A stretch of DNA of 36,932 bases, taken from the NCBI GenBank assembly GCA_011525905.1, contig WYBK01000322.1, forward strand, positions 1-36,932, given 5' to 3'. Position numbers and translations under genes: made by a program. This DNA comes from Acidobacteriota bacterium (GTDB taxonomy: Bacteria; Acidobacteriota; Thermoanaerobaculia; Multivoradales; JAGPDF01). This document shows, piece after piece, positions 6,122-31,800 of this stretch (within the stretch, counting starts at the first letter, position 1; every line of letters begins with the position of its first letter). The notes under the pieces are model-generated. The model saw only the letters and a program-made list of their open reading frames with translations, was not told where the DNA came from and ran no database searches.

Positions 6122-6211
6122 TGGCGGAGGGGGAGGGATTCGAACCCCCGGACCCCTTGCGGGGTCAGCGGTTTTCAAGACCGCCGCAATCGACCACTCT
6201 GCCACCCCTCC
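6122..6211 (-). tRNA. tRNA-Ser(UGA)
   Basis: A complete class II tRNA of 90 bases with CCA encoded (complement of 6122-6124). The acceptor stem pairs GGAGGGG (6211-6205) with CCCCTCC (6132-6126), with discriminator G at 6125. The anticodon loop reads CTTGAAA with anticodon TGA (complement of 6175-6177). A long variable arm (TGACCCCGCAAGGGGTCC) identifies a serine tRNA, and the T arm is GGGGG-TTCGAAT-CCCTC. It sits 20 bases after the stop of the receiver/HATPase gene and about 1 kb downstream of serS, the enzyme that charges it, in the same orientation. Confidence 0.98.
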
Positions 6212-6231: not shown

Positions 6232-8513
<2,282 letters not shown>

Positions 8514-8525
8514 CGGCGGCGCGCG

Positions 8526-8531
8526 TAGACT
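8526..8531 (+). promoter_or_regulatory. -10-like box TAGACT before polysaccharide operon
   Basis: TAGACT ends 13 bases before the ATG at 8545, predicting a leader of about 6-7 bases without a Shine-Dalgarno site. No convincing -35 hexamer is seen. It is the only promoter-like element directly ahead of the seven-gene operon. Confidence 0.4.
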
Positions 8532-8544
8532 CCTCGAAGCCGCC

Positions 8545-9885
8545 ATGCCCGCCCGAGATCCCGCCGGGACCCTTCCGCGCCGCCGGCCCGCCGGCGGCGA
8601 GCTCGGCCTCGCCGGCCTGCTGCCGCTCGCTGCGCTCGCCGCCGCCGGATTGGCCACCGCGCGCTCGTCGACCGAGTCGGGGGCGGCGGCTGCCACCGAG
8701 GCGCTCACTCTCTTCGCCGTCGCGGCGCTCGCGCCGATCGCGCTGCTCGCCGGCGCGCGGGCGCCGACAGCGCTCGCTGCGCTGCTCGCCGGCGTCGCGC
8801 TCGCCGCCCTGCCGCACCTGGGCGTGCTGCGCCTGGCGGCCGTGCCGCCGCTCGTCTCTGTCGCGATCGCTCTGGTCGCCGCGCGCGAGCTCGACCCCCG
8901 GCGCGCGCCGCCGCGACCGGCGAGCGCGCTCGCCATCGCCTTCGCCGCGCAGCTCGTGGCGCGCGGCGTCGCGCTCTGGTTCGCCCCCGCCGCGCCCGCG
9001 ACCTGGCTCGAGCTCGTGGTGCTGCCGGCCTCGGCTGGCGCCGCCCTCGTGCTGGCCGCGGGCGCCGCGCCCGGCGCCGCCGGCCGCGCCACGGCCGTCG
9101 CGCTCGCCGCCTTCGTCGCCGGACCCGGCTTCACGCCGGCCGGCGTCGGCGCGCTCGCCGCCCTCGCGGCGGTCGAGCGCTCCGCCCGGTCCGGGCCTCG
9201 CCTGCGCCTCGTCGCGACCGGCGCTCTCGCGCTGCTCCCCTTCGCGGCCGCCGCCGAGCCGGCTTGGCTCGCGCTCGCCGTCGCCGCCGCCGCCGTGACG
9301 GCCGCGGGCGCGGCGCCGCCGCTGGCGCACGCGGCGCGCACGCTGCTGCTCCTGCTCGCCCTCGCGACCGCGCTCGCCGCCGCCCCCCCCTGGGCGCGCC
9401 GGCCGGCCGCCGCGAGCGCCCTCTCCGCCCTGGGCGCCGCCCGCCCGCTCGTGCTCGAGCGGCCGGTCGACACCCGCCCAGTCGTGCTCAGCGCAGCCGC
9501 GCCTCGTTTCGAGACCGCGCTCTCCGGCGAGCCGGTGGGAGGCTGGGTAATCGACTCCTACCTGGTCGAGTCGGCGGCCCTCCCCTGCGGCCGCCGCTTG
9601 GCGACGGTCACCCTGGAGGGGGGCGAGCCGGTGCCACTCACCCTCGGCCGCGACAGCGGCGAGTGGGCGTCCGACCGCGCCGACGTCGCGGCCACGCTCA
9701 CCTGCCCGCCGCCCCCGCCCTGGACCTCTTGGGTGCCGGCCGAAGGGCGGTTCTTCGGCCACCACTACCGCAGCCGCGCCCGCCTCGCCACGCCGCGCGC
9801 CGCTCACCGGCTGGTCGTCGAGCGCGACCCGACGCTCCCGCCCGGCGTGACGATCGCGCTCTTCCAGGTGGCGACCGAGCGATGA
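8545..9885 (+). CDS. Polytopic membrane protein with C-terminal extracytoplasmic domain
   Basis: 446 residues from ATG. Residues about 20-305 are almost continuous hydrophobic Ala/Leu-rich segments (roughly ten or more transmembrane helices). Residues about 306-446 are hydrophilic and beta-rich (PVVLSAAAPRFETALSGEPV onward), probably outside the cytoplasmic membrane, and contain two Cys (ALPCGRRL and LTCPPPPP) that could form a disulfide. I recognise no family. It overlaps the next gene, a large GT-C-like membrane protein, by 4 bases and heads the polysaccharide operon. A role in transport, polymerisation or transfer of the glycan is plausible from context only; it could fill the place of the missing flippase or polymerase. 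Confidence 0.85.
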   Translation: MPARDPAGTLPRRRPAGGELGLAGLLPLAALAAAGLATARSSTESGAAAATEALTLFAVAALAPIALLAGARAPTALAALLAGVALAALPHLGVLRLAAVPPLVSVAIALVAARELDPRRAPPRPASALAIAFAAQLVARGVALWFAPAAPATWLELVVLPASAGAALVLAAGAAPGAAGRATAVALAAFVAGPGFTPAGVGALAALAAVERSARSGPRLRLVATGALALLPFAAAAEPAWLALAVAAAAVTAAGAAPPLAHAARTLLLLLALATALAAAPPWARRPAAASALSALGAARPLVLERPVDTRPVVLSAAAPRFETALSGEPVGGWVIDSYLVESAALPCGRRLATVTLEGGEPVPLTLGRDSGEWASDRADVAATLTCPPPPPWTSWVPAEGRFFGHHYRSRARLATPRAAHRLVVERDPTLPPGVTIALFQVATER

Positions 9886-12044
9886 CGCGGCGCTCCCTCG
9901 TCGAGCTCCTCCTCGCGCTCGCCGCGGCGGCGGCGCTCGATGCGCTCCTGCCGCCCTTCGCGGCGGCCGGGCTGCGCGCGACGCTCGCCTTCGCGCCGAT
10001 CCCGCTCGCGCTCTTCGCCGCGGTCGCCCGCGCCGCTCCCCGCGGGCGCGCGCGGCCGGCCGAGCACGCCGCGCTCGTCGCCTGGGTGCTCGCCGCGCTC
10101 GGCCACGACCGGCTCGGCCTGCCCGAGTCGGCGCCCCTGGTCGCCGCCTTCGGCCTCCTCCTCATGGGGGCGCGGACGCTCCGGCTGGCGCTGGCGCTCG
10201 CCCCCCGGCTGCGCCGCCGAGAGGCGCCGCTCGACCTGCTCCCCTTCGTGCTGCTGCCGGCCGCCGTCTACCTCGCGATGCTCCCCTGGGCGAGCGCGGC
10301 GCGCGCGCCCAACGGCGACGAGCCCTACTACCTGCTGCTCGCCCACTCGATCGCGGAGGACCTCGACGTCGACCTCGCCGACGAGTACCGGGAGGGCGCC
10401 TGGCGGAGCTTCTCCGACCAGCCGGTCGAGCCACAGCCGGGCGATCCGACCGGTCCCGCGGGCGAGATCTACTCCCGTCACGAGCCGGCGCTGCCGCTGC
10501 TGCTCGCCCCCGCCTACGCCGCGGCCGGGCGCCTCGGCGCCCAGCTCGTGATGGTCGCGCTCACCGCGCTCGCCGCCGGCCGGCTGCTCGCCGCGGCCCG
10601 CCGCCAGCCCGGCGTCGGGCCGCGCGGCGCGCTGGCGGCTTGGGGGCTGTTCGCCTTCGCGCCCCCGCTGCCGCTCTACAGCCACCAGGTCTGGGTCGAG
10701 GTGCCGGCGGCGCTGCTGCTGCTCCTGGCGATCGAGGCGCGGCTCGACCTGCGCGCGTCGGCGGGCGCGGCGTCCTGGCGCAGCTGGCTCCGCTTCGCTC
10801 TGCCGCTCGCGGCGCTCCCCCTGCTCAAGCTCCGGCTGCTCGCCGTCGCCGCGCCGCTCGCCCTGCTCGCGCTGGCCGGGCTGCGCCGCCAGCGCCGCCT
10901 CCAGGTGTCGCTGGTCGCCCTCTTCGCTCTGGTCGTCGCGGCGATCCTCACGGCCAACCAGCTCGCCTTCGGCAACCCGCTCAAGATGCACTCGGTCGAG
11001 GACCTGGCGCTCGGCTCGGTGCCGCTCGAGCAGTTCCTGCGCGGCGGCGTCGGGCTCGGCTTCGACTTGGCGTTCGGGCTGCTCGCCGCGGCGCCGCTCT
11101 GGCTGCTCGCCCTGCCGGCGGTCGCGCGCGTCCTCTGGCGCCTCGAGCCGATCACGCTCGAGCTGGCCGCGCTCGCCCCCTACCTCCTGCTCACCGCCTC
11201 GCGCCGCGAGTGGTACGGCGGCTTCTCGCCGCCGTTCCGCTACGGCCTCGTTCTGCTGCCGATCGTCGCCCTGGCGATCGCCCGACTGCTGGCGCGCCGG
11301 CCGCCGGCGCCGGCGCGCACGCTGATCGCCGCGCTGGCGGCGCTCTCGCTGCCGCTCGCGCTGGTCTGGCTCGCGCTGCCCGAGTTCAGCTACCACCTGG
11401 CCGACGGCAGCAATCATCCGCTCGACCGGCTGAGCGCGCGCCACGCCGTCGACCTGCTGCGCTTCCTGCCCAGCGCCGTGCGACCGAGCGCGGCGACCTG
11501 GCTCGTGCCGCTCGCGCTCGCGGCGCTCGCGCTCGCCGCCTTCGCGTCGCGTGCCCGCCGGCCGCGCCGCGCCTGGACGGCCGGCGTCGCGGCGGCGCTC
11601 GCGCTCTGGCCGGCGTTGCTCGTCGCCGCCCACCGGCTGCCCACCCGGGTCGTCGAGCTCGAAGACCCCTGGATCGCCCATCGGGGCGCCCTGCCCTACC
11701 CGGAGCGCTGGGTGCTCGACCGCACGCTCTACCGCGGGGGCCGGATCCTGCCGGAGGGCGCCGAGGCCGCTTTCGTTCCGGTCCCGGGCGGCCGCCAGGT
11801 CGAGATGGCGGTCGAATGGAGCTACATCCGCAACGTCGCCTCGCCGCTCGCGCTCGAGCTCTGGGCCGACGACCGGCTGCTGGCGCGCCTGCGGCCGGGT
11901 GCGCCGGGCGTCTGGCAGCGCACGCAGCTCGGCCCCTTCCCCTGGCGAAAGGGATCGCGCCTCCGACTGGTCGGGGGCGCGCCGGAGGGGTCGGCGCCGG
12001 TCAACGGCCTCGTGGTCGATCGCCTGGAGCTCGCCTGGCGGTGA
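9882..12044 (+). CDS. Large GT-C-like membrane glycosyltransferase
   Basis: 720 residues from ATG overlapping the previous stop (ATGA). About 12 or more hydrophobic segments fill residues 1-590, and a beta-rich tail (about 610-720, ending APVNGLVVDRLELAWR) probably faces the periplasm. After the first helices, in a loop typical of the GT39/GT83 superfamily, is APNGDEPYYLLLAHS with Asp146-Glu147, the kind of acidic pair that binds the lipid-phosphate donor. A further conserved-looking loop motif is YSRHEPALPLLL. GT-C enzymes move a sugar from a polyprenyl-phosphate carrier to an acceptor outside the membrane. The exact family is uncertain. Donor and acceptor are unknown. The next gene starts inside its stop (GTGA). 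Confidence 0.85.
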   Translation: MTRRSLVELLLALAAAAALDALLPPFAAAGLRATLAFAPIPLALFAAVARAAPRGRARPAEHAALVAWVLAALGHDRLGLPESAPLVAAFGLLLMGARTLRLALALAPRLRRREAPLDLLPFVLLPAAVYLAMLPWASAARAPNGDEPYYLLLAHSIAEDLDVDLADEYREGAWRSFSDQPVEPQPGDPTGPAGEIYSRHEPALPLLLAPAYAAAGRLGAQLVMVALTALAAGRLLAAARRQPGVGPRGALAAWGLFAFAPPLPLYSHQVWVEVPAALLLLLAIEARLDLRASAGAASWRSWLRFALPLAALPLLKLRLLAVAAPLALLALAGLRRQRRLQVSLVALFALVVAAILTANQLAFGNPLKMHSVEDLALGSVPLEQFLRGGVGLGFDLAFGLLAAAPLWLLALPAVARVLWRLEPITLELAALAPYLLLTASRREWYGGFSPPFRYGLVLLPIVALAIARLLARRPPAPARTLIAALAALSLPLALVWLALPEFSYHLADGSNHPLDRLSARHAVDLLRFLPSAVRPSAATWLVPLALAALALAAFASRARRPRRAWTAGVAAALALWPALLVAAHRLPTRVVELEDPWIAHRGALPYPERWVLDRTLYRGGRILPEGAEAAFVPVPGGRQVEMAVEWSYIRNVASPLALELWADDRLLARLRPGAPGVWQRTQLGPFPWRKGSRLRLVGGAPEGSAPVNGLVVDRLELAWR

Positions 12045-12973
12045 CTCGGGTCGTCGCCGTGGTCCCCTCGCTCGGCCTCGCTCCGGGGGCCGGCCGCGCC
12101 CTGGCCGCGCTGCGCGCCGAGCTCGCGCGCGCGCACGGCGCTCTCGTCTGGGTGCACCAGGGAGTGGCGGGCGAGCCTCCGGAGCTTCTCCCCCCCGCCG
12201 AGCGGCTGCTCAGATTGCCGCGGCGCGCCGGCTTCGCCCGCGCGGTCAACACCGGCATCGCCGCCGCCCGGGCGGCCGGCGCCGTGAGGATCGCCCTGGT
12301 CAACGACGACGCGACGGTCGAGCCGGGCTGGCTCGCCGATCTCGACCGCGCGCTCGACGACCATCCCGAGGCGGCCGCCGCGCAGGGGGTCGTCCTGCTC
12401 GAGGAGCGCCCCGCGCTCGCCGACGGTTGGGGGCTCGGCTGGAACCGCTGGCATCAGGCGGTGCAGCTCGGTCACGGCGAGGCGCCGCCGCCGGCGAGCG
12501 CCGAGGCATGCGAGGTCTTCGGCGTCTCGGCGACCGCCGCCCTCTACCGCGCCGCGGCGCTCGCCGAGCTCGGCGAGCGGCCGTTCGACGAACGGCTCGA
12601 CAGCTACTACGAAGACGCCGACCTCGCCGTGCGTCTGCGCGCCCTCGGCCACGCCGCGCTCTCGGTGCCGGCGGCGCGCGCCCGCCACGGCGCCGGCGCC
12701 ACCGCGCGGCGGCGGCCGGCGCGGCGCTGGGCTTGGATCCAGGGGAACCGCTGGGCGGTGGTGGCACGCGCCGCCGGGCGTCGCTTCCCGCTCCTGCTGC
12801 CGGCGCTCGCCGCGCGCGACCTCGCCGACCTCGCGCGCGCGCTGGCCGAGGGGGACGGCGCGCGCGCCGCCGGCATCCTCGGCGGCTTCGCACGCGCCGC
12901 CTGGCTGCTGCCGCGTTTCGCGCGCGCCGGTGCGCCCTGGCCGCCCTTCGCCCCCTCCGTGCGCTCGCGCTAG
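12041..12973 (+). CDS. Glycosyltransferase family 2
   Basis: 310 residues from GTG at 12041 (GTGA overlap with the upstream stop). GT-A fold features: N-terminal VVAVVPSLG, GFARAVNTGIAAAR, the acidic nucleotide-sugar/metal motif LVNDDATVEPGWL, and DSYYEDADLAVRLRALG, the ED motif with the likely catalytic base. This pattern matches rhamnosyltransferase-like GT2 enzymes. No transmembrane helix is evident, so it works at the inner face of the membrane. It is the first of three successive GT2 genes, which suggests sequential additions to one repeating unit. The sugar added cannot be read from the sequence. Confidence 0.92.
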   Translation: MTRVVAVVPSLGLAPGAGRALAALRAELARAHGALVWVHQGVAGEPPELLPPAERLLRLPRRAGFARAVNTGIAAARAAGAVRIALVNDDATVEPGWLADLDRALDDHPEAAAAQGVVLLEERPALADGWGLGWNRWHQAVQLGHGEAPPPASAEACEVFGVSATAALYRAAALAELGERPFDERLDSYYEDADLAVRLRALGHAALSVPAARARHGAGATARRRPARRWAWIQGNRWAVVARAAGRRFPLLLPALAARDLADLARALAEGDGARAAGILGGFARAAWLLPRFARAGAPWPPFAPSVRSR

Positions 12974-12976
12974 GCT
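12971..12976 (+). promoter_or_regulatory. -10-like box TAGGCT overlapping stop codon
   Basis: TAGGCT begins with the TAG stop of the upstream GT2 gene and ends 7 bases before the ATG at 12984. This spacing would give a leaderless internal transcript. There is no clear -35 hexamer, so chance is a real alternative. Confidence 0.25.
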
Positions 12977-12983
12977 GGCCCGG

Positions 12984-13895
12984 ATGAGCTCGCCGCGCCT
13001 CTCGACCGTGGTCGTCGTCTGGCGGGCGGCAGCCGACGCGCTCGAGCTGGCGCGCACCTTTCCCGGCGACCCGCGACACGAGCTCCTGCTGGTCGACAAC
13101 GGCGGCGACCTCCAGCTGGACGAGGCGCCGGGTCGCCGCGTGCTCCGGCCCGGGCGCAATCTCGGCTTCGCCGGCGGCTCGAACCTCGGCGCGCGCGCCG
13201 CCACGGGCGAGCTGCTCCTCTTCTTGAACCCCGACGCGCGCCCGGTCGACGACGCCTACGCGCGGCTGCTCGCCGGTTTCGAGGCGCAGCCGGCGGCCGC
13301 CGGCCTGGTGCCGCGCCTGCTCTCCCCCGACGGCGCCCCGCAGGCGCGCTGGCAGCTGCGGCCGCTGCCCGGCGCGCTCGCGCTGCTCGCCCATGCCTTC
13401 TTCTGGAATCCGACCCGCGGGCCGCGCGCCGAGCCGGCCGCCGGCACGCCGGTCGCGCAGCCGGCGGCGGCGGCGCTGGCCCTCCGGCGGTCCGCCTTCG
13501 AGCGCGTCGGCGGCTTCGACGAGGGTTTCCATCCCGCCTGGTTCGAGGACGTCGACCTGGCGCGGCGGCTGGCCGCCGCCGGCCTGCCGCTGCTCTACCA
13601 TCCGGCGGCCGCCTTCACCCACCGGATCGGCTCGAGCCTGGCGACGCTCGGCTACGCGGGCTTCCTGATCGCTTACGACCGGGGGCTCGCCCGCTATCTC
13701 GCCCGGCATCACGGAAAGGCCTGGGCGGGCGCCTTCCGCGCCCTGGTGCCGCTCGGCGCGCTGGCGCGGCTCGCCCTGCTGCCGCTGGTCAAGCCGACGC
13801 GCGCGCCGAGCCGCCGGGCAGCCGCTCGCGCGCTCTGCGCGGTCGCGCGCGCGGCGGTCGCCGGCTTCCCGCGCGACCGCGAAGGGGTGGCGTGA
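12984..13895 (+). CDS. Glycosyltransferase family 2 (WbbL-like)
   Basis: 303 residues from ATG, 10 bases after the previous gene. Motifs in order are LSTVVVVWRAA, LLLVDNGGD, the GT2 signature GRNLGFAGGSNLGARAA, the donor-binding LLLFLNPDARP, and HPAWFEDVDLARRLAAAG with the ED pair and catalytic-base region. These are typical of WbbL-type rhamnosyltransferases of O-antigen and exopolysaccharide pathways. Residues about 240-270 contain a hydrophobic patch that may touch the membrane. The stop overlaps the next GT2 start (GTGA). Sugar specificity is an inference from family resemblance only. Confidence 0.93.
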   Translation: MSSPRLSTVVVVWRAAADALELARTFPGDPRHELLLVDNGGDLQLDEAPGRRVLRPGRNLGFAGGSNLGARAATGELLLFLNPDARPVDDAYARLLAGFEAQPAAAGLVPRLLSPDGAPQARWQLRPLPGALALLAHAFFWNPTRGPRAEPAAGTPVAQPAAAALALRRSAFERVGGFDEGFHPAWFEDVDLARRLAAAGLPLLYHPAAAFTHRIGSSLATLGYAGFLIAYDRGLARYLARHHGKAWAGAFRALVPLGALARLALLPLVKPTRAPSRRAAARALCAVARAAVAGFPRDREGVA

Positions 13896-14893
13896 GCGCG
13901 CCGGTCACGGTGGCGATCGTCACCCACGACGACGCCGCCGATCTGCCCGCCTGCCTGGCCGCGGTCGCCCGTCAGACCCAGCGGCCGCTCGAGCTGGTGG
14001 TCGCCGACTGCGCGAGCCGTGACGACTCGCTCGCCATGGCGCGCCGGCACGCGCCGTCCGGCGTCGAGACCCGCCTGCTCGAGCTCGGCGAGAACCTCGG
14101 CTTCTCCGGGGGGATGAACGCGGCCTTCCGCGCGAGCCGGGCGCCCTGGTTCCTCACCCTGAACGCCGACGCCGAGCTGGCGCCCGACTACCTCGAACGG
14201 CTGCTCGCGCGGCTCGTCTCCTCGGCGGCCGCACGGCCCGGCGCCGCGACCGGCCGCCTCCTGCGTCCGGGGGCGCCGCCGACGCTCGACGCCTGCGGCT
14301 TTCGCCTGACTCGCGCCTGGCGCCACCTCGACCGGGGCTCCGGCCAAGCCGACCGGGGGCAGCTCGGACGCGCCGAGCGGGTCTTCGGCGGCACGGGCGC
14401 GGCGACCCTCTGGTCGCGCGCGGCGGCCGAGGACGCCGCGGTCGAGCCGGGCGAGCTGTTCGATCCGCGCTTCCACACCTACCGCGAGGACGCCGAGCTC
14501 TGCTTCCGCCTGGCCGAACGGGGCTGGGCGGTGCTCTACGAGCCGGCGGCGCGCGCGCTGCACCGCCGGCGCGTGCTGCCGGAGCGGCGGCGAGCGCTGC
14601 CCGCCTTCGTCAATCAGGCCTCGCTGCGCAACCGCTACCTGCTGCGCATCTACCATCAGACCGGCGCGAACCTCCTGCGCACCCTGCCCTGGACGCTGGC
14701 GCGCGACCTCGGCGCGCTCGCCTGGGTGCTCGCGCTCGAACGCCGCTCGCTGCCCGCCTACGCTTGGCTCTGGCGGCACCGGCGCGAGCTCTGGGCGCGG
14801 CGGCGGCGGCTCCAGGCGCGCAAGAGCGCGCCGGCGAGCGACCTCGAGCGCTGGTTCTCGACCGACGCGCTGCCGCTCGGGGAGGGGAGTTGA
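13892..14893 (+). CDS. Glycosyltransferase family 2
   Basis: 333 residues from GTG at 13892 (GTGA overlap). Motifs are VTVAIVTHDDAADLPACL, LVVADCASRDDS, GENLGFSGGMNAAFRAS, FLTLNADAELAPDYL (donor and metal binding) and FHTYREDAELCFRLAERG (ED motif). The C-terminal 80 residues are basic and amphipathic (ARDLGALAWVLALERRSLPA), which would suit membrane association. It belongs to the same broad group as the gene before it but has diverged, so the two probably add different sugars or linkages. Its stop overlaps the TTG start of the next gene. Confidence 0.93.
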   Translation: MSAPVTVAIVTHDDAADLPACLAAVARQTQRPLELVVADCASRDDSLAMARRHAPSGVETRLLELGENLGFSGGMNAAFRASRAPWFLTLNADAELAPDYLERLLARLVSSAAARPGAATGRLLRPGAPPTLDACGFRLTRAWRHLDRGSGQADRGQLGRAERVFGGTGAATLWSRAAAEDAAVEPGELFDPRFHTYREDAELCFRLAERGWAVLYEPAARALHRRRVLPERRRALPAFVNQASLRNRYLLRIYHQTGANLLRTLPWTLARDLGALAWVLALERRSLPAYAWLWRHRRELWARRRRLQARKSAPASDLERWFSTDALPLGEGS

Positions 14894-16080
14894 GGGGAGG
14901 GGCGGGAATCGAGGAGAGGGGCCGGGAGTCGAGCCGCCCGCCGCGCGTCGCGCTGCTCGGCAGCCGGGGGATCCCGGCGCGCTACGGCGGTTACGAGACG
15001 CTCTTCGCCGAGCTCGCACCGCGCCTCGTCGCGCGCGGCTTCGACGTCACCGTCTACGCCCGAAAGCACTACGTCCGCCGCCCCGTGCGCCGCTATCGGG
15101 GAGCGCGCATCGTGGTGCTGCCGACGCTCGCCACCAAGCACCTCGACACGCCGGTCCACACGCTGCTCTCCTGCCTGCACGCCGCCAGCGAGCGCTTCGA
15201 CGCGGCGCTCGTGGTCAACTCGGCCAACGCGCTCTTCCTGCCGCTGCTCGGCGCGGCCGGCGTGCCGAGCGTGCTCAACGTCGACGGCATCGAGAGGCGC
15301 CGGGCGAAGTGGGGGGCCTTCGGCCGGGCCGTCTACGCGCTCTCCGAGCGGCTCGCCTGTCTGCTGCCCGACGCGCTGGTGACCGACGCCGAGGTGATCC
15401 GCGAGCACTACGAGCGGCGTTACGGCGCCCCCTCGACCGTGGTCACCTACGGCGTCGACCGCGGCCCGGCGCGCGGCCGGCGCACGCTCACCCGGCTCGG
15501 GCTCGAGCCGGGGCGCTATCTGCTCTACGTCTCCCGCTTCGAACCGGAGAACAACCCGCACCGGGTCGCCGAGGCCTACCGGCGAGTGCCGGGCGAGCTG
15601 CCCCTCGTGCTGGTCGGCACGGCCCCCTACGCCTCGGCCTTCATCGACTCCTTCACCCGCGGCGCCGACCCGCGAGTCCGCTTCCCCGGCGCGATCTACG
15701 GCCGCGGCTACCGCCAGTTGCTCGAGCACTGCGCCGCCTACGTCCACGCCACCGAGGTGGGCGGAACGCACCCCGCTCTCGTAGAAGCGATGGGTCATGG
15801 CGCCTGCTGCATCGTCCACGACACACCCGAGAATCGCGAGGTCGCCGGCGCGGCCGCGCTCTACTTCCGCGCCGAGGAGCCGGCGAGCCTCGCCGCGGCG
15901 ATCGGCAGGGTGCTGGCCGACCCGCCACTGGCCCGCCGGCTCGGCGAGGCGGCCGCCGCACGCGCGCGTGCGCGCTTCGACTGGGAGGCGGTCGCCGACC
16001 GCTACGCCGAGCTGCTCGCGCGCGTGGCCGGGCTCGGACCGCTCCCGGCTTCGCGGCGGGAGCCCCCGGCGGTCGGCTAG
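14890..16080 (+). CDS. Glycosyltransferase family 4, DUF1972 rhamnosyltransferase-like
   Basis: 396 residues from TTG at 14890, which overlaps the upstream TGA (TTGA) and follows a GGGGAGGGGAG tract that can serve as ribosome site. After a short Arg/Glu-rich lead, residues 20 onward show VALLGSRGIPARYGGYETLF, the hallmark of the DUF1972 N-terminal domain. The C-terminal GT-B half has YLLYVSRFEPENNPHRVAEA and ATEVGGTHPALVEAMGHG, the donor-binding region in the form usual for this group. Family members transfer rhamnose or related sugars in capsule and exopolysaccharide synthesis. It works in the cytoplasm on the lipid-linked chain. Confidence 0.93.
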   Translation: MRGGAGIEERGRESSRPPRVALLGSRGIPARYGGYETLFAELAPRLVARGFDVTVYARKHYVRRPVRRYRGARIVVLPTLATKHLDTPVHTLLSCLHAASERFDAALVVNSANALFLPLLGAAGVPSVLNVDGIERRRAKWGAFGRAVYALSERLACLLPDALVTDAEVIREHYERRYGAPSTVVTYGVDRGPARGRRTLTRLGLEPGRYLLYVSRFEPENNPHRVAEAYRRVPGELPLVLVGTAPYASAFIDSFTRGADPRVRFPGAIYGRGYRQLLEHCAAYVHATEVGGTHPALVEAMGHGACCIVHDTPENREVAGAAALYFRAEEPASLAAAIGRVLADPPLARRLGEAAAARARARFDWEAVADRYAELLARVAGLGPLPASRREPPAVG

Positions 16081-16134
16081 AATCGGTCGCCAGAGCCGCA
16101 GCCGGCGCCGCGCGCCGTGCTCGACCGCGCCGAC

Positions 16135-17589
16135 ATGCTGAAGCAGCAGGCCCGACTGATCGCGACCGGGGTCTACCTCCTCGACCTCGCCCTGGTCTCG
16201 CTCGCCTTCTTCCTGGCGCACGTCCTGCGCGACACCCTGCTTCCGGCGCTCGGCCTCGACGCCTTCGAGGCCGGCCTCTACCCGGTCGAGCGCTACCTGC
16301 CGCTGCTGCCGCTCGCCCTCGCGCTCTGGTCGGTGCTGCTCTGGTCCTCGGGCCGCTACCGCTCGCACCGCACGGTGCCGCTGCTCGCCGAGGCGAGCGC
16401 GATCCTGCGGGTCACCGCCACGGCCGCCGTGCTCTTCGCCCTCGCCGTCTGGGCGCTGCGGCTCGACGAGCGGCTGCTCGGCGACGATCGCATCAGCCGC
16501 TCCTGGATCCTGCTCTTCGCGCTGCTCGCCGGCCTGCTGCTGCTCGCCGAGAAGATCGCCCTGCGCGCCACCTCCCGCCACTTCCGGGTGCGCGGCTTCA
16601 ACTTCCGCACGGTGCTGCTGGTCGGCACCAACCCGGCGGCCCGCGCGATCGCCGCGTCGATTCGCGGCCACCGCTACTGGGGCTACCGGGTGCTCGGCTT
16701 CGTCGCCGGCCGGCAGGAGAGCGGCGCGCCGGAGCCGGACGTCCAGCCGCTGCTCGGCACGGTCGACGAGCTGCCCAGGATCCTGGCCGAGAACGTCGTC
16801 GACGAGGTGATCTTCTCGGTCTCGCGGCGCGAGCTCGACCAGTTCGAGAACCTCTTCCTGGCGCTCCAGGACCAGGGCATCCTGACCCGCTTCGCGCTCG
16901 ACTTCTTCCCCCACACCCAGGCCAAGATGGTGCTCGAGGAGCTCGACGGCGTGCCCCTGGTGACCTTCTCGACCAGCCCGACCGGGGTCGCGCCGCTCGC
17001 CTTCAAGCGGCTGGTCGACGTGGCGCTCGCCGCGTTGCTGCTGCTGCTGGCCGCGCCGGTCGTGCTGCTGATCGCCTCGGCGATCAAGCTCACCTCGGGC
17101 GGCGCGGTGCTCTTCCGCCAGACCCGCTGCGGCCTGAACGGACGCCGCTTCGTGCTCTACAAGTTCCGCACGATGGTGGCCGACGCCCACGAGCGCCGCC
17201 ACGAGGTCGAGCACCTGAACGAGATGAACGGTCCGGTGTTCAAGGCCTCCAACGACCCGCGCGTCACCGCGCTCGGCCGGCTGCTGCGCAAGTTCAGCCT
17301 CGACGAGCTGCCGCAGCTCTGGAACGTGCTGAAGGGGGACATGAGCCTGGTCGGGCCGCGGCCGCCGATCCCCGAGGAGGTCGCGCGCTACGAGCGCTGG
17401 CAGCGGCGCCGGCTGGCGATGAAGCCGGGCCTGACCTGCCTCTGGCAGATCTCCGGGCGCAACCAGGTCGACTTCGACCGCTGGATGCAGCTCGACCTGC
17501 AGTACATCGACTCCTGGTCCCCCTGGCTCGACTTCAAGATCCTGGCCAAGACCGTCCCGGTCGTCCTCTCCGGGCGCGGCGCCTCCTGA
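16135..17589 (+). CDS. Polyprenyl glycosylphosphotransferase (initiating sugar transferase)
   Basis: 484 residues from ATG at 16135; a GTG at 16117 would add six residues and neither has a clear ribosome site. Layout: four hydrophobic segments (about 8-110), a nucleotide-binding-like domain (about 150-270, VLLVGTNPAARAIAAS), one more helix (about 300-325), then the bacterial sugar-transferase domain with FRQTRCGLNGRRFVLYKFRT, RLLRKFSLDELPQLWNVLKG and MSLVGPRPPIPEE. This catalytic signature is that of the WbaP/EpsL/CpsE group, which moves a sugar-1-phosphate onto undecaprenyl phosphate. It would start the repeat unit that the preceding glycosyltransferases extend. Last gene of the operon. Confidence 0.95.
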   Translation: MLKQQARLIATGVYLLDLALVSLAFFLAHVLRDTLLPALGLDAFEAGLYPVERYLPLLPLALALWSVLLWSSGRYRSHRTVPLLAEASAILRVTATAAVLFALAVWALRLDERLLGDDRISRSWILLFALLAGLLLLAEKIALRATSRHFRVRGFNFRTVLLVGTNPAARAIAASIRGHRYWGYRVLGFVAGRQESGAPEPDVQPLLGTVDELPRILAENVVDEVIFSVSRRELDQFENLFLALQDQGILTRFALDFFPHTQAKMVLEELDGVPLVTFSTSPTGVAPLAFKRLVDVALAALLLLLAAPVVLLIASAIKLTSGGAVLFRQTRCGLNGRRFVLYKFRTMVADAHERRHEVEHLNEMNGPVFKASNDPRVTALGRLLRKFSLDELPQLWNVLKGDMSLVGPRPPIPEEVARYERWQRRRLAMKPGLTCLWQISGRNQVDFDRWMQLDLQYIDSWSPWLDFKILAKTVPVVLSGRGAS

Positions 17590-17600
17590 CTCCGGTCAGG
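17585..17600. terminator. Small palindrome holding both convergent stop codons
   Basis: CCTGAC-TCCG-GTCAGG is a perfect six-base-pair hairpin. Its left arm contains the TGA of the sugar transferase gene and its right arm the TGA (reverse strand) of pdxA. It may act as a weak bidirectional terminator, but there is no T-tract on either side. Confidence 0.3.
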
Positions 17601-18621
17601 CCCGCGGCGGCCGAGGTGCGGCGCCCCGGCTGCGCGGCAGACGCCCGGCCAGCAGGTCGAGGGTGGTCGCGAGCACCGCGACGAGCGGTCCGGGGTCGGC
17701 GCGGCCGGTGCCCGCGAGATCGAAAGCGGTGCCGTGGTCGACCGAGGTCCGGACGAAGGGGAGGCCGAGAGTCCAGTTGGTCGCCAGGCCGAAAGCGGCG
17801 GTCTTGACCGCGATCAGTCCCTGGTCGTGGTAGAGCGCCAGCACCCAGTCGAACTCGCCCCGCCGGGCGCGCGCGAAGAGCGAGTCGGCGCTCTCCGGGC
17901 CGTGGGCATCGATGCCCACCGCCCGGGCCCGCTCGACGGCGGGTGCGATCCGCAGCGGCTCGTCGCCGCCGAGCAGGCCCCCTTCGCCGGCGTGCGGATT
18001 GAGGCCCGCGAGCGCGATGCGGCCGCCGGCGTGGCGGTCGAGACAGGCGAGCGCCTCGAGCAGCATCCCCGGCTCGAGCCGCGCGATCGCCTCCGTGAGC
18101 GGCTCGTGGACGGTGGCGAGGGCGACCTGCAGGTCGGGAGCGAGGAAGGCCATCAGGTAGTCGCGCCCGTAGCGCTCGAGCCCGCAGCGCGCGGCCAGGT
18201 GGTCGGTGTGCCCGACGAAGCCGGGAGCGGCGTGGGTGGCGATCGAGGCTTTCGAGACCGGCGCCGTCACCACGGCGTCGACCGCGCCCGCGAGCGCCAA
18301 GTCGATCGCCAGGTCGAGCGCCGCGAGCGCCCCGTGGGCGTCGGCGGCGAGCGAACGGCCGGGGGTGACCGCGCGCCGCGCGCCGACCGGATCGACCGCC
18401 GGCAGGGCGCCGGGCGCCAGCGCGAGCAGCTCCTCGCGGCGCGGCCGCGTGGCGAGCCAGACGATCCGGTCGATCAGCTCCGGCGCGACGCGGGCGGCGA
18501 CCGGCTCGAGCGCGGCGCGTTCGAGGACCAGCAGGGGACGCGCCGCCGAGCCGAGCGGCGCGCGCTCGAGCGCGCGCAACACGATCTCCGGCCCGATGCC
18601 GGCCGGATCGCCCTGCGTCAA
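17596..18621 (-). CDS. pdxA: 4-hydroxythreonine-4-phosphate dehydrogenase
   Basis: 341 residues from TTG at 18621. PdxA oxidises 4-phosphohydroxy-L-threonine with NAD(P)+ in the DXP-dependent pathway to pyridoxal 5'-phosphate. Seen are the N-terminal TQGDPAGIGPEIVLRAL, VTAPVSKASI, GHTDHLA, NPHAGEGGLLG and LALYHDQGLIAVK, whose three His are the usual metal ligands. The start is doubtful: the frame upstream reads LLALTQGDPAG, so a CTG at 18630, 11 bases after GGAG, would match the family N-terminus (LALTMGDPAG) better than the TTG. It lies 17 bases after the Sm-protein gene and probably shares the ricT promoter. PLP made here could serve SufS, but that link is only functional, not genomic. Confidence 0.95.
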   Translation of the reverse strand: MTQGDPAGIGPEIVLRALERAPLGSAARPLLVLERAALEPVAARVAPELIDRIVWLATRPRREELLALAPGALPAVDPVGARRAVTPGRSLAADAHGALAALDLAIDLALAGAVDAVVTAPVSKASIATHAAPGFVGHTDHLAARCGLERYGRDYLMAFLAPDLQVALATVHEPLTEAIARLEPGMLLEALACLDRHAGGRIALAGLNPHAGEGGLLGGDEPLRIAPAVERARAVGIDAHGPESADSLFARARRGEFDWVLALYHDQGLIAVKTAAFGLATNWTLGLPFVRTSVDHGTAFDLAGTGRADPGPLVAVLATTLDLLAGRLPRSRGAAPRPPRA

Positions 18622-18638: not shown

Positions 18639-19067
18639 CTACTCCGTGGCGCCGGTTTCGCTGCTGCCGGCGTCGCCGCCGCTGCCGCCGCTGCCGCCAT
18701 TACCGCCGTTGCCGCCGTTCCCGCCGTCGGCCGCGGGCGCTGCGCCCGCCCCCCGCCGCCGCGCGCGGCGCAGCTCCTCTTCCTTGAACAGGTAGCGGAT
18801 CGAGTGCTTCGGGATCAGCAGATTGGGGCCGACGTGGCGGTTGAGCTTGATCGCGCCCTTGTCGTACCACTCGATCCAGCCGCGCAGCTCCTCGCCATCG
18901 ACCAGCACGACCACCATCGGCGTGCGCGCGGCCATCTGCTTGAGGTAGTAGAACTCCTCGGCGTTGGTCTGCTCGGGCGGGCTCTGCTTGCGCCGGGTCA
19001 CGGCGCGCGGCTCGCCGCCGCGTTTCTGCTCTCCCAGGTCGGGACGGATCAGCTTCCGATTGCTCAT
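18639..19067 (-). CDS. Hfq-like Sm RNA-binding protein with Gly/Asn-rich tail
   Basis: 142 residues from ATG at 19067, overlapping the ricT stop (ATGA). Residues 1-34 are a basic, disordered lead ([20 protein letters not shown]). Residues 35-96 fit an Sm fold: an N-terminal helix ([11 protein letters not shown]), Sm1-like strands ([21 protein letters not shown]) and an Sm2 motif [12 protein letters not shown], whose KHSI corresponds to the YKHAI motif of Hfq. Residues 97-110 are Arg-rich, and 114-142 are a low-complexity Gly/Asn/Ser tail ending acidic (SSETGATE), like the flexible tails of Hfq. It probably binds RNA as a hexameric ring, but hexamer and sRNA function are inferred. The neighbour RicT also acts in RNA metabolism. 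Confidence 0.85.
18676..18729. repeat. Six 9-bp tandem units encoding the Gly/Asn/Ser tail
   Basis: Six consecutive units of the form CCGCCGnnn (CCGCCGCTG twice, CCGCCATTA, CCGCCGTTG, CCGCCGTTC, CCGCCGTCG) lie in the 3' part of the Sm-protein gene. On the coding strand each unit encodes GlyGly plus one residue (Asn, Ser or Asp). Each unit is three codons, so expansion or loss would keep the frame and change only tail length. Confidence 0.85.
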
Positions 19068-22237: not shown

Positions 22238-22864
22238 TCAGGCGATCAGCCGCTGCAGCGCGCCCCGCCAACCGCGGAAGCGCACGCGCCCCTCGAGGCG
22301 GAAGAGGATCCAGCAGTCGTCGCCGTCGAGGGTGTGCGGCCCGTGCTCGGAGCCCGGCTCGTAGATCGCGAAGTCGCCGGCCACGAAGGCGCCGCGCTCG
22401 TCCTCGTAGCCGCCGGCGAGCACCACCGCGTGCTCGAAGCCGAGGTGGCGGTGGCGCGGGAAGACCCGGCCTCCCGGCATGTGCGCGACCGCCAGGGCCA
22501 CGCCGCGCTCGTCGTCCCGGTCGAGCACCGCGAGGCGCGCGCCGCGCAGCAGCGGCCGCCACCAGCGCACTCGGCCACCGGGCACGAGCTCGCGGCGGGC
22601 GGCGAGCGGCAGCGGCACCGAGGCCGGGATCGGATCGGCGGCCGGTGCCGAGTCGAGGCGCGCCGCGAGCTTCGTCCAGAGCGCGTCGGGCGCCGGCAGG
22701 CGCGGCAGGGCGCCGAGCGCCCAGCCGCCCGGAGCGCTGACCGCGGCGACCTCGGCGCGGCAGGCGGCGCAGTGGTCGAGATGCGCCTCGAGCACGACGC
22801 GCAGGGCGCGGTCGAGATGTCCCGAAGCGTGGGCGAGCAGAGTCTCGGACGGGGGGTGCATCAT
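22238..22864 (-). CDS. ChrR-like zinc-binding cupin anti-sigma factor
   Basis: 208 residues from ATG at 22864, overlapping the sigma-factor stop (ATGA); a second ATG follows at once. The N-terminal part (about 1-60) is an anti-sigma domain with the zinc motif His28-x3-Cys32-x2-Cys35 (HLDHCAACRAEV). The C-terminal part (about 95-205) is a cupin: FPRHRHLGFEHAVVLAGG supplies the His/His/Glu-type metal site, and GDFAIYEPGSEHGPHTL the second motif. This two-domain layout is that of ChrR, which in Rhodobacter holds its ECF sigma until singlet oxygen or peroxides trigger release. The signal here is inferred from family. The gene context, with superoxide dismutase nearby, agrees. Confidence 0.88.
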   Translation of the reverse strand: MMHPPSETLLAHASGHLDRALRVVLEAHLDHCAACRAEVAAVSAPGGWALGALPRLPAPDALWTKLAARLDSAPAADPIPASVPLPLAARRELVPGGRVRWWRPLLRGARLAVLDRDDERGVALAVAHMPGGRVFPRHRHLGFEHAVVLAGGYEDERGAFVAGDFAIYEPGSEHGPHTLDGDDCWILFRLEGRVRFRGWRGALQRLIA

Positions 22865-23520
22865 GGCGCGGGAGCCTCGGTAGGGGTGCCCGCCGGCACA
22901 GCCGGTCCGGGCTCGGTCAGAACGTCGCGGAGAATCGCGAGGCCGGCGCGGATCCTCGACTTGAGCGTGCCGAGCGGCAGATCGAGCCGCTCGGCCGTTT
23001 CCTCGTAGGTGAGCCCGCCGAAGTAGGCGAGCTCGAGAGCCTGGCGCTGCTCGGCCTTGAGCGCTCCGAGCGCCTGGCGCACCGAGAGCGCGGCGACGCG
23101 GCCGTCGGCGCCCGGCTCGTCGGACTCGAACCGGGTCAGGTCGACGGCCCCGTCCTCGTCGGCGCGCGCCGAGCGACGGCGCCAGAGATCGACCAGCTTG
23201 TTGCGCGCGATCGTGTAGAGCCAGGCCGGCACGTCGCCGCGGTCGGGCCGATAGCTCGGGGCCTTGCGCCAGACCGAGAGGAGCACCTCCTGCGCCAGGT
23301 CCTCGGCCGCCTCGCGCTCGCGCGCGAGCATCCGGATGTAGGCGAGCAGGCGGCCGGCATGGCGGTCGTAGAAGAGGCGGAAAGCCTCCCGGTCCTCGCG
23401 CGCGATGCGCCGGATCAGCTCGCGGTCGGTGATCTCGTCGGTCATCGGTAGGGCCGTCTCCAGCCGGAGGCCGCGCCCGGGCAGGGATGCAGCGGCGGCG
23501 GGGGCGGCGGCACTCGGCAT
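22861..23520 (-). CDS. ECF sigma factor (RpoE-like, ChrR-partnered group)
   Basis: 219 residues from ATG at 23520. This start has a GGAGAG ribosome site and lies 20 bases after a predicted self-promoter; an ATG at 23445 (MTDEITD) would remove a 25-residue low-complexity lead and is the alternative. Region 2 covers about 35-105 (FRLFYDRHAGRLLAYIRM, DLAQEVLLSVWRKAPSYR, WLYTIARNKLVDLWRRR). Region 4 covers about 150-200 (LKAEQRQALELAYFGGLTYEETAERLDLPLGTLKSRI). There is no region 1 or 3, as usual for ECF factors. It is translationally coupled to its anti-sigma factor, and its targets probably include its own operon. Confidence 0.95.
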   Translation of the reverse strand: MPSAAAPAAAASLPGRGLRLETALPMTDEITDRELIRRIAREDREAFRLFYDRHAGRLLAYIRMLAREREAAEDLAQEVLLSVWRKAPSYRPDRGDVPAWLYTIARNKLVDLWRRRSARADEDGAVDLTRFESDEPGADGRVAALSVRQALGALKAEQRQALELAYFGGLTYEETAERLDLPLGTLKSRIRAGLAILRDVLTEPGPAVPAGTPTEAPAP

Positions 23521-27275: not shown

Positions 27276-28817
27276 ATGCCCCGATCGACCGCGCACCGAC
27301 TCGCCCGCGCCCTGCGCGCCGCGCTCATCGCGCTCTGCTCGCTCGCGGCCCCCGCCGCTCTCTCGGCTGCGGGAGGCGGCGCGCCGGAGGCCGGGCTCGC
27401 CTTTCCGCCCCCGCTCGCGAGCTACGGCGGCGAGGAGGGCCTGCCGCTCGGCGAGGTGCTCGCCGGGCGGGTGCGCGCCGAGCCGCTCAACCTGGTCGCG
27501 ACGCTGCTCTTCTTCGCCGCGGTCCTGCACACCTTCCTGGCGCCCAAGATCGCCGCCTACGCCCACCGGCTCGAGCACCGGCCGCCCGCCGACTACGACC
27601 GGGACGGCGAGATCGAGCCGCACGAGCACCCGCTCGACACCAGCACGTTCAAGGCGGAGTTGCTCCATTTCCTGGGCGAGATCGAGGCGGTTTTCGGACT
27701 CTGGGTGGTGCCGCTGCTGATCACCCTGACGGTGGCCAAGGGCTGGGGCACCGCCGAGGGGTTCATCGGCCGTGGCGTGCACTTCACCGAGCCGGTGTTC
27801 GTCGTGGTCATCATGGCGATCTCCTCGACCCGGCCGGTGCTGCAGTTCGCCGAATGGCTGATCGGGCAGGTGGCGCGGCTGGGCGGCGGTACGCCCTTCG
27901 CCTGGTGGCTCTCGATCCTCACGGTCGGTCCGGTGCTCGGCTCGTTCATCACCGAGCCGGCGGCGATGGTGATCGCCGCCCTGCTGCTCTCGCGCCGGCT
28001 CTTCGCGCTCGGGCCCTCGCGCCGCCTCGCCTACGCCACGCTCGGCCTGCTGTTCGTCAACATCTCGGTCGGTGGCACGCTCACCCACTTCGCCGCGCCG
28101 CCGGTGCTGATGGTGGCGGGCAAGTGGGGGTGGGGCTTCTCGCACATGGCGAGCCAGTTCGGCTGGAAGGCCGTGGTCGGCGTGCTGATCGCCAACGCGC
28201 TCTACGCCACGCTCTTCCGCGGCGAGCTCACGGCGCTCTCCGCGCGCGTCGCCGAGCGTGCGGAGGCGACCGCCGCCCGGCGCGCCCCGGCGCCCTTCTG
28301 GGTCGTGGCGATCCATCTCGTCTTCCTCGCCTGGACCGTGATGACCGCCCACACGACGGCCCTCTTCGTCGGCGGCTTCCTCTTCTTCCTCGCCTTCCTG
28401 CAGGCGAGCCAACCCCATCAGGACCCGCTCAACCTGCGCTCGCCGCTGCTGGTCGGCTTCTTCCTCGGCGGTCTGGTCGTCCACGGTGCGCTGCAGCAGT
28501 GGTGGATCGAACCGGTGCTCAGCCGACTCGGCGAGCTGCCGCTCTTCTTCGGCGCGGTGGTGCTGACGGCCTTCAACGACAACGCGGCGATCACCTACCT
28601 CGCCTCGCTCGTCCCCTCTTTCAGCGACGGGATGAAGTACGCGGTGGTCGCCGGCGCGGTCACCGGCGGCGGCTTGACGGTGATCGCCAACGCGCCCAAC
28701 CCTGCGGGCCAGGCGATCCTCGGCAAGCACTTCGAAGGGGGCATCCAGCCGCTCGGGCTGCTGGCCGGCGCGCTGCCGCCGACCGCCGTGCTGGCCGCGG
28801 CCTATCTCCTCCTCTGA
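27276..28817 (+). CDS. Putative Na+/H+ antiporter with EF-hand loop
   Basis: 513 residues from ATG with GGAGG just upstream. Residues 8-32 form a signal-like segment; then come about 11-12 transmembrane helices. The sequence fits the putative Na+/H+ antiporter family of pfam07399: LLHFLGEIEAVFGLWVVPLL, SSTRPVLQFAEWLI, SFITEPAAMVIAALLLSRRL and VVLTAFNDNAAITYLASL, with acidic and Asn residues inside helices as in ion-coupled carriers. A loop at 106-117 (DYDRDGEIEPHE) matches the calcium-binding EF-hand consensus at every key position. Substrate ions are not proven. Its 3' end overlaps the 3' end of the convergent sensor kinase gene by 16 bases. Confidence 0.85.
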   Translation: MPRSTAHRLARALRAALIALCSLAAPAALSAAGGGAPEAGLAFPPPLASYGGEEGLPLGEVLAGRVRAEPLNLVATLLFFAAVLHTFLAPKIAAYAHRLEHRPPADYDRDGEIEPHEHPLDTSTFKAELLHFLGEIEAVFGLWVVPLLITLTVAKGWGTAEGFIGRGVHFTEPVFVVVIMAISSTRPVLQFAEWLIGQVARLGGGTPFAWWLSILTVGPVLGSFITEPAAMVIAALLLSRRLFALGPSRRLAYATLGLLFVNISVGGTLTHFAAPPVLMVAGKWGWGFSHMASQFGWKAVVGVLIANALYATLFRGELTALSARVAERAEATAARRAPAPFWVVAIHLVFLAWTVMTAHTTALFVGGFLFFLAFLQASQPHQDPLNLRSPLLVGFFLGGLVVHGALQQWWIEPVLSRLGELPLFFGAVVLTAFNDNAAITYLASLVPSFSDGMKYAVVAGAVTGGGLTVIANAPNPAGQAILGKHFEGGIQPLGLLAGALPPTAVLAAAYLLL

Positions 28818-31800
28818 GCGGCGCGGCGGGCGGCGCGCCCGCGCCCTTCGGCGAAGGCGAGCGCCGTGGCGATGTCGGCCGTGGCGAGCTCTTCGGCCCT
28901 CTCGACCTGGTCGGCGTAGGCGCGCCGCACGTGCGCCGGCAGCTCGCCCGGCAGCAGCAGGCACCAGGCGAGCGCCCGGCCGCGCGCCTCCCGCTGCAGG
29001 GAGCGGACCAGGCCGAGCCCGCCCGGCAGCGCGCTCTCCGGGTCGACCAGCACCGCCGCCGCGCTCTCCTGCTCGAGCTCCTCGAGCACGGCCTCGGGCG
29101 TTTCGGGCGCGCGCGCGGCGAGCCCGGCGGCCGCGAGCGCCGCGGCGCGCGCCCGGCGGCGCTCGCGCTCGCCGCCGAGCAGGACGACCGACGCCCCGTC
29201 TGGCCTGCCCTCGCCGGCGATCAGCCCGGCGACGGTCTGGGCGACCTCTTCGACGTCGGCGCTCGCGGCGAGCACCCGGTCGAAGACGAGAGCCCAGCCG
29301 CGCTCGTCGTCGCCGGCGCTCGCCAGCAGGAGCAGCGGCACCCCGCTGCGCGCCAGCTCGCGCTCGAGCGCCGCCGCGCTCCCCCACCCCTCGGGACGCG
29401 CCGGGTCGAGGCGCAAGACCACGGCGGCCGGCTCGAGCTCGCGCATCATTCGCCGCGCCTCCTCGAGGTCGGGCGCCCGCACCGCCAGCCGCCCCTCGGG
29501 CTCGAGGAGGCGCGCCAGGCCCCGGAAACGCTCCGGCTCGGGCTCGATGACCAGCACGCGCGGCAGATCGGGTGAGGCGCCCGAGCGCTCCTCCTCCTCG
29601 ACCCGCGCCAGCAGGGCCTGGGGCACGAGTGGCAGCAGGACGCGGAAGCTCGCGCCCTGGCCGGCCCGGGAGTCGACCTCGATGTGCCCGCCGAGCAGGC
29701 GCGCGAGCTGGCGGGCGATCGGCAACCCGAGCCCGGTGCCCGGCGCATCGCCCGGCCGGGACGCGGCCTGACGGTAGGGCTCGAAAATCCGCTCGAGGTC
29801 GTCGGCGCCGATCCCCGGCCCCTGGTCGCGGACCGCGAGCTCCCAGGCCGGAGCCCCCAGGCTGCCGCCCCCCTCGGGCAGCGGCCGCGCCTCGATCGCC
29901 ACCAGGCCCCGCGGCGGCGAGAACTTGATCGCGTTCGACAGCAGGTTGAGCACGATCTGGCGGAGCTTGGCGACGTCGGTCTCGACCCGTTCGAGCGGCG
30001 GCTCGACGCGCGTCTCGAGGCGCACGCCGCGCGTTACCGCGAAACCCTCCATCAACGAGGCGACGCTGGCGAGCAGCGGCTCGAGCGCCACGGCCTCCAG
30101 GTGCACCTCCATGCGCCCCGACTCGAGCTTGGCCTGGTCGAGCAGGTTGTTGACCAAGCGCAGCAAGTGGTTGCCGCTCTCGCGGATGTTGACCAGGAAG
30201 CGCAGCTCGCGCGCGTTGAGTCGGCCGCCGGCGGCCGACTCGAGCAGCTCCGAGAAGCCGAGGATCGAGGTCAGCGGCGTGCGCACCTCGTGGCCCAGCC
30301 GCGCGAGCAGCTCGTCGCGCTCGCTGGCGCGGGCGCGCACGCGGGCGTGGCTGCGGTCGAGCGTCGAGAGGTGCTCGGCCAGCGCGCGAGCGTAGCGGGC
30401 GAGGTCTTCGGTGCGCTCGGCGACGCGCCGCTCGAGCTCGCGCGCCCGCGCCTCCACCCGCCGGGTGCGCAGCCCCATTCCGGCGGCACCCAGGCCGACC
30501 AGCGCGAGCAGCGCCGCGAATCGCACCGGCGGGCGCTGCCACCAGGCGGGGCGCACGGTGAGCGGCAGGGCCGCCGGCTCCCCCCACTCGCCGCCGCGCA
30601 GCGCCGCCCGCACCTCGAGGCGGTAGTTTCCCGGCGCGAGATTGGTGAACTCGCGGAAGGGCTCCGAAACCGCCTCGGGCCAGTCCGCGTCGAGCCCCTC
30701 GAGCCGGAACTGGTAGCGCAGGCCCCGTTGCCGGCGGAAGAGCAGCGCCCGCGCTTCGACCCGCAGCCGGTCGTCGCCCGGCGCCAGCTCGACCGGCGCC
30801 GAGCCCAGCCAGCCGGCCACCCCCGTCCCTTCGAGCGCCGAGAAGGGGGCGGCGAGCAGACGCCCGCGACGAGAGATCAGGCGCTCGATCGCGACCGCCG
30901 GCGAGGGCTCGGCCTCCGGCTCGAGGCCGGCGGGGAAGCCGGTCATCCCCCCCTTGAAGCCGAACCAGTACCGGCCGAACGCGTCGCGCGTGAAGGCGCT
31001 CGAGTGCGAGACCTCGGTGGCGAGCGGACCGTCGCCGCGCGCGAAGCGGGCGAGCACGCTCCCCTCCCCCTGGCGGGCGCGCGGATCGAAGAGCAGCACC
31101 CCCCGGTTGGTCCCGAGCAGCAGGTGACCATGCTCGTCGTCGCCGAGCGTGAGCACCTGCACGTCGGCGAGCCCCGCCTCGGCGCCGTAGCTGACGAACC
31201 GGGGGGGCGCCCCGGGCCGCAGCTCGAGGAGGCGCGTGACGTGGCCGTAGCCGCCCAGCCAGAGCGTGCCGTCACGCGCCGTCGCGAGCGCGCGCACGGT
31301 GCCGACCGGCGCGGCGCTCTCGGCGACGGCGTGGAAACGCCCCGCCTGGCGGTAGGAGAGCCCCTCGCCGTGCGCGATCCAGAGGCGCCCCGCGGCGTCC
31401 TCGGCGAAGATGTAGCCGCGGTCCGCGGCCATGCCGTCGGCACTCGTGAAGACTTCGACCCGCGGGGGAGCGGCGCCGGCGACCAGCCCGCGCACGCGCG
31501 CCACCGCCAGCGAGGTCGCCACCCAGAGGTCTCCGGCGCGGTCGAAGTGCAGGGCGTAGATCGTGCCCGGCCAGGGGGGCGGGTCGGGCAGCGGCCGCAG
31601 GCAGCGCCCGCCCTCCAGGCGGCAGATGCCGCTGCCGGTGCCGACCCAGAGCCGCCCGGCCGGGTCGAAGGCGAGCGCCCAGACCCACGCCTCCGGCAAA
31701 CCCGCCTCGACGCCGAAGCTCTCGATCTCCGGCCGGCCGTGGGCGTCGAGCGCGAGGCGCGCCAGCCCGCCGACGGTGCCCGCCCAGACCGCGCCCGCGC

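Follow-up and report, generated by a model that had tools for sequence, protein, structure and literature searches.

Glycosyltransferases in which a GT-C core is joined to a CBM have been described from two bacterial settings. GT136 of Citrobacter youngae O1/O2, as presented in the part of PMC11127046 used here, is a GT-C pentofuranosyltransferase with a CBM that acts post-polymerisation on an ABC-exported O antigen; D31/E34, H106 and R349 are essential for it and Y350 nearly so, and a polyprenyl-phosphoribose synthase and a MATE flippase are linked to it (PMC11127046). A second precedent is the CBM of mycobacterial EmbC, according to the portion of PMC3044687 that we draw on.

The locus described here lies on a contig (C266, 36.9 kb) of a 93% complete MAG of 3.74 Mb in 353 contigs, belonging to the class Thermoanaerobaculia; the whole stretch of 36,932 nucleotides was analysed and is referred to as the window. 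Positions 8545-17589 of the plus strand are filled by seven co-directional, mostly overlapping genes in the order A (8545-9885), B (9882-12044), GT2a (12041-12973), GT2b (12984-13895, with an alternative in-frame start possible at 12930), GT2c (13892-14893), GT4 (14890-16080) and a WbaP/EPS-type polyprenyl-phosphate sugar-1-phosphate transferase (16117-17589), the initiating transferase. Overlaps of 4 nt join A to B (9882-9885), B to GT2a (12041-12044), GT2b to GT2c (13892-13895) and GT2c to GT4 (14890-14893, where the TTG start of GT4 is uncertain), and GT4 and the initiating transferase are 36 nt apart. Three GT2, one GT4 and one PF02397/TIGR03025 protein were assigned with Pfam and NCBIfam, the last of these with 424.9 bits against a TIGR03025 cut-off of 295.55; the model nearest to GT4 was the beta-1,4-rhamnosyltransferase Cps2T, below its cut-off. 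The operon is flanked by a divergent seryl-tRNA synthetase gene (serS, 7167-8465, minus strand) and a convergent pdxA gene (17596-18621, minus strand), both assigned by Pfam and conserved in the loci of relatives. The order from SerRS on the minus strand through A, B, GT2a, GT2b, GT2c and GT4 to WbaP was found again in relatives and is therefore not due to chance. The overlaps, the family assignments and this recurrence bear out the initial annotation, which had read the genes from sequence as a tightly overlapping seven-gene glycan operon and as a lipid-linked pathway with one initiating transferase and four glycosyltransferases. A simple codon-position gene caller favoured a minus-strand ORF (8502-9473) over A, which was accepted as a gene nevertheless because the same place and frame are kept in relatives.

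Elsewhere in the window, a tRNA-Ser (TGA) gene at 6122-6211 is found on the same strand as serS, just downstream of serS and a response-regulator/ATPase gene, and this tRNA was the sole result of scanning the window for tRNAs and Rfam families. A short gene with a sub-threshold Hfq-like domain (18639-19067) lies between pdxA and a PSP1 gene, and this trio again adjoins the operon in relatives. An ECF sigma factor gene followed by a ChrR-type cupin anti-sigma gene was identified at 22238-23445, and a hybrid sensor kinase of 1361 residues with regulator-propeller repeats at 28802-32887.

In order to follow the operon across the class, 148 genomes were surveyed, 72 of them from the same order. 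GT4 was identified in 133/148 genomes (1e-30) and B, by profile, in 106/148 (1e-20). A was recovered from 28/148 by single-sequence search, and a profile of its C-terminal domain detected 63/148. Among B-positive genomes, 62 of 106 contained this domain, as did one of the 42 B-negative ones (counts read from lists, with kinship ignored). Gene order was read in a census of 84 loci around GT4, taken from the 133 GT4-positive genomes, and in five further A/B loci; f1-f17 are family labels, and families f13 to f17 contributed 11, 10, 1, 3 and 6 loci, respectively. GT2c adjoins GT4 in 78/84 loci (on the opposite strand in L224), and the initiating transferase follows in 79/84, most exceptions being at contig ends. 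A directly precedes B as a separate gene in 14/84 loci, while A and B are fused into one gene in 10/84, which are all ten f14 loci examined. Taken with the co-occurrence of the two genes, the fusion confirms the earlier suggestion that the 446- and 720-residue proteins belong together.

B without a detected A was found in nine GT4 loci (eight from f10 and L207, at a contig edge), and on the opposite strand in L227. All seven f7 loci contain A without B; the B locus was read for one genome of this family, and there B stands alone elsewhere. The pair is therefore separable in place. Neither gene was present in any of the ten f15-f17 core loci, and A/B is therefore not essential to the core glycan. 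Three f3 loci (L037, L048 and L060) have A and B between serS and pdxA, with the glycosyltransferase block located elsewhere; A of L037 was seen by profile only, under the label L096/G041. HMM searches did not pick up the A domain in f10, where an A-like protein ends in a divergent form of it (hhalign probability 75%, E 2.6e-5, three sequences). This divergent domain, together with the still extended C-termini of the f10 B proteins, led us to reject a joint loss of both beta domains in that family. B-type proteins of 911-1149 residues with long N-terminal membrane parts and no detectable A domain occur in f13 (L247-L255). A fusion was called only where an A domain lay in the same frame as B, and the long f13 genes were thus not counted; a long frame is insufficient by itself because the GC content here yields long frames by chance, and B of the window itself sits in a frame of 1171 aa. 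The HMM Ac2 was rebuilt from hits that included fused proteins; against six f14 loci, the earlier model Ac, made from separate genes only, scored 25-45 bits, and it gave 32 bits for L123. Outside Thermoanaerobaculia, GT-C proteins resembling B adjoin GT2 genes in Chloroflexota and Aminicenantes contigs, and no A domain was detected in these loci.

Additional genes were observed at some loci. In L067 (10599-12452) and L071 (8950-10794), the gene immediately after the initiating transferase belongs to the sulfatase family, a hint that the glycan of these relatives may be sulfated or phospho-modified. A PhyH-family dioxygenase gene lies between GT4 and the initiating transferase in L177 (2477-3523; f2 genome G025), and genes of about 320-340 aa occupy a similar place in L188 and L190.

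The model of B (mean pLDDT 93.6, pTM 0.93) contains a core at residues ~118-505 whose best matches by VIA were ALG12 (Z 23.4), ArnT (21.6) and AglB (20.5), with 321-331 residues aligned at an rmsd of 3.9-4.3; PMT, PglB, AftB and AftD were also matched, Z ranging overall from 23.4 down to ~15. By Foldseek, the top match was mycobacterial EmbB (E 1.1e-6). The core is much better conserved than the rest of the protein, with 109/387 columns at ≥85%, and contains a GDEP motif (G145-P148; 10314-10325) in which D146 and E147 are putative catalytic first-loop residues, each kept in 49/50 alignment rows with a gap in the remaining row. H200 and R453 are kept in 50/50 rows, and E273 is essentially invariant. 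No Pfam family matched B, and sequence searches against solved structures gave nothing usable for either B or A. By fold and motif, B is a GT-C glycosyltransferase and therefore neither a flippase nor a Wzy polymerase, which sets aside the earlier proposal that it might supply export or polymerisation. Its modelled fold would place sugar transfer on the outer face of the membrane, probably from a polyprenyl-phosphate-linked sugar. The C-terminal module (residues 587-720; 11640-12041) gave a Z of 15.0 to 7ay3 (118 aligned, rmsd 2.5) and of 14.7 to 1w0n (CBM36), and accordingly has a CBM jelly-roll fold of the CBM36/CBM6-like type.

A was modelled with lower scores (mean pLDDT 85.9, pTM 0.77) as a membrane bundle of about eleven helices followed by a jelly-roll of ~135 residues (residues ~310-446; 9472-9882), so that both proteins are indeed membrane bundles with a C-terminal beta domain, as had been read from their sequences. 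The structure search that had been proposed for A gave no Foldseek match at E≤0.001 and no clear homology to an unrelated family; the VIA match list is dominated by the beta domain and bears little on the membrane fold. The membrane part shows no catalytic-looking pattern. No Pfam family was found at E≤1, hence none of the Wzx, Wzy or MATE families, and as judged from sequence matches A is a protein of no known family. The best VIA match of the beta domain was AziU3/U2 (Z 9.2), followed by CBM36 and CBM29 at 7.2-8.4, with CBMs and BcsB at 7-9 overall. Binding of carbohydrate by this jelly-roll is plausible, as a guess from middling fold matches; W374 and R409 are invariant in it and R378 is kept in 93%. 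Helix counts and the positive charges near the fusion joint, read by eye and heuristically, put the domain outside the membrane; in the fusion, some four helices separate the A domain from GDEP, compared with five in the B model of the window. Foldseek matches of A to EmbC were not significant (E 7.5e-3, TM-score 0.16) and were rejected as a sign of a GT-C fold; a distant duplication linking A and B was likewise rejected (hhalign A3 vs A4, probability 0.4%).

Among the window proteins scanned with Pfam, none matched a Wzx, Wzy, Wzz or Wza family, in agreement with the earlier statement that flippase, polymerase and length-control genes are absent from the locus. Elsewhere in the same genome, we identified four Wzy_C matches and, at the end of a contig, one partial Wzx-type gene, along with a weak second match; Wzz and Wza gave no match in the 93% complete MAG. 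One of the Wzy_C genes, on C226, adjoins another initiating transferase, and that set therefore probably serves another glycan. The search for wzx/wzy outside the operon thus confirmed that such genes exist, but they are unlinked and lack a detected Wzz and Wza, so that the initial annotation is not cleanly refuted by them. Wzm/Wzt genes lie directly upstream of the glycosyltransferase core in four of the 84 GT4 loci (f3 genomes G041, G042, G049 and G050). The ABC-2 permease and ATPase linked there are nearest to galactan-type Wzm/Wzt, come from a single family of genomes in all four cases and lack Wzt_C; A and B are also present in three of these four genomes. Wzt_C domains were identified in 70 of the 72 order genomes, including the one studied here, with an adjacent Wzm (nine neighbourhoods read). 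The Wzm/Wzt pair of this genome (C213; L194 9884-11988) contains Wzt_C, stands alone with no glycosyltransferase beside it and is unlinked to the operon; it may serve another glycan. No gene for an ABC-pathway chain terminator was seen. Most likely, the operon glycan is exported by a Wzm/Wzt ABC transporter rather than by Wzx/Wzy.

The reading that we favour, and consider fairly probable, is that the operon makes a lipid-linked glycan which is probably ABC-exported and which A/B then lengthens or decorates on the outer side of the membrane, with a polyprenyl-phosphate sugar as donor. As the observed gene content suggests, the WbaP-type enzyme would load the first sugar onto polyprenyl-phosphate, and GT4 and the GT2 enzymes would lengthen the polyprenyl-diphosphate-linked glycan on the cytoplasmic side. 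Export would most likely proceed via Wzm/Wzt, in line with the linkage observed in a few relatives. In keeping with the GT-C and CBM folds, B would then add one or more sugars on the outer face, presumably from the polyprenyl-phosphate sugar, while its CBM may bind the acceptor glycan. The pairing and fusion of A and B are consistent with a physical complex, in which A would be the dedicated partner of B, a membrane scaffold holding or positioning the acceptor, and its jelly-roll a second, probably glycan-binding, domain. A more far-reaching version, which we put forward tentatively, takes A as a new GT-C companion that delivers or flips the donor or clamps the acceptor, and A/B as a two-part glycan machine of the outer face, a split counterpart of Emb that was later fused in one lineage.

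That A might instead be the donor flippase, its bundle moving the polyprenyl-phosphate sugar outward and handing it to B with the beta domain docked on B or on the glycan, would agree with the need for such a flippase in three-component GT-C systems, as set out in the part of PMC11127046 used here, and with a bundle of ~11 helices that is coupled or fused to B. We consider it unlikely: in addition to the missing Pfam match, only 13 of the 252 columns of the membrane part are conserved at ≥85%, few of them polar, and the length of the membrane part differs widely between relatives. Given the same scarcity of conserved polar residues, the lack of a Pfam or significant fold match and the three f3 genomes in which A/B occurs alongside a linked ABC exporter, nothing positive supports export or polymerisation by A, which the initial annotation had raised as a possibility for one of the two proteins. 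Quite unlikely, in our view, is an oligosaccharyltransferase or ligase role, in which B would hand over the complete lipid-linked glycan to a protein or a surface lipid. The oligosaccharyltransferases AglB, STT3 and PglB are among the GT-C matches of B (Z 16.5-20.5), but single-sugar transferases match it at equal or higher Z, and WWDYG, the oligosaccharyltransferase motif, is absent from the B sequence as read by eye. In G035, which has neither A nor B, their slot is occupied by a Wzy_C (O-antigen ligase) protein. This keeps a ligase or polymerase role alive, but the replacement was observed in a single genome, with another case nearby. Transfer to protein, as suggested earlier, is thus possible insofar as the GT-C class includes oligosaccharyltransferases, but nothing points to a protein acceptor. 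Polymerisation of repeat units outside the membrane by A/B, as an Emb-like processive extension in place of Wzy, appears similarly unlikely: the Emb/Aft arabinosyltransferases are the top Foldseek matches of B, the fused form has two beta domains flanking the GT-C core as Emb proteins do, and no Wzy is linked, but product length is unreadable from sequence and f15-f17 retain the core pathway without A/B.

Under the favoured reading of a probably ABC-exported glycan that A/B extends or decorates outside the membrane, an anatomy can now be given for a core surface-glycan pathway that is widespread in a little-studied class: an initiating enzyme and four transferases are joined by a GT-C/CBM enzyme and by a partner protein that falls into no known family. 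Through the fusion, it becomes possible to ask directly if a GT-C enzyme may depend on a dedicated partner that is itself non-catalytic. The ABC exporters linked in a few relatives suggest a way in which the product of a locus lacking Wzx/Wzy can still be exported. Literature searches, including those on Thermoanaerobaculia glycosyltransferases and Acidobacteria exopolysaccharide clusters, found no description of the operon.

Among known systems, the only named family matching B is LA_3751/LA_3752 (NF047440; E 1.9e-5), of which B is a relative and not a member (23.7 bits, cut-off 200). ArnT (GT83) and ALG12/ALG9 have the GT-C core in common with B (Z 16.7-23.4), which differs from them by extra N-terminal helices, the CBM and the partner A. 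The Wzm/Wzt pathway resembles the present one through its linkage to the same core in the four loci, and differs in being unlinked in this genome and in the chain-terminator gene, which was not seen. EmbA and EmbB are partners that are both GT-C proteins, whereas A, by sequence, is not a GT-C homologue. Mycobacterial EmbA/B/C and AftD share the GT-C core and CBM fold with B, as far as the part of PMC3044687 used here goes, but are much larger, with an overall TM of 0.35. An A-like partner is not described for EmbC or for the GT136 system in the parts of PMC3044687 and PMC11127046 used here. No polyprenyl-phosphoribose synthase or MATE flippase was found among the window proteins scanned with Pfam, so that the operon differs from GT136 in having no linked donor synthase or MATE flippase. 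Otherwise GT136 and B agree in being GT-C proteins that carry a CBM at the C-terminus and work on the far side of the membrane, their substrate being a polysaccharide that is exported by an ABC transporter; for B, this role and route are the probable ones. D31/E34, H106 and R349/Y350 of GT136 recall the invariant D146/E147, H200 and R453-Y454 of B in order and rough spacing, a likeness of pattern between unaligned sequences. On the portion of PMC11127046 considered here, the GT136 system is the closest characterised counterpart of the A/B locus.
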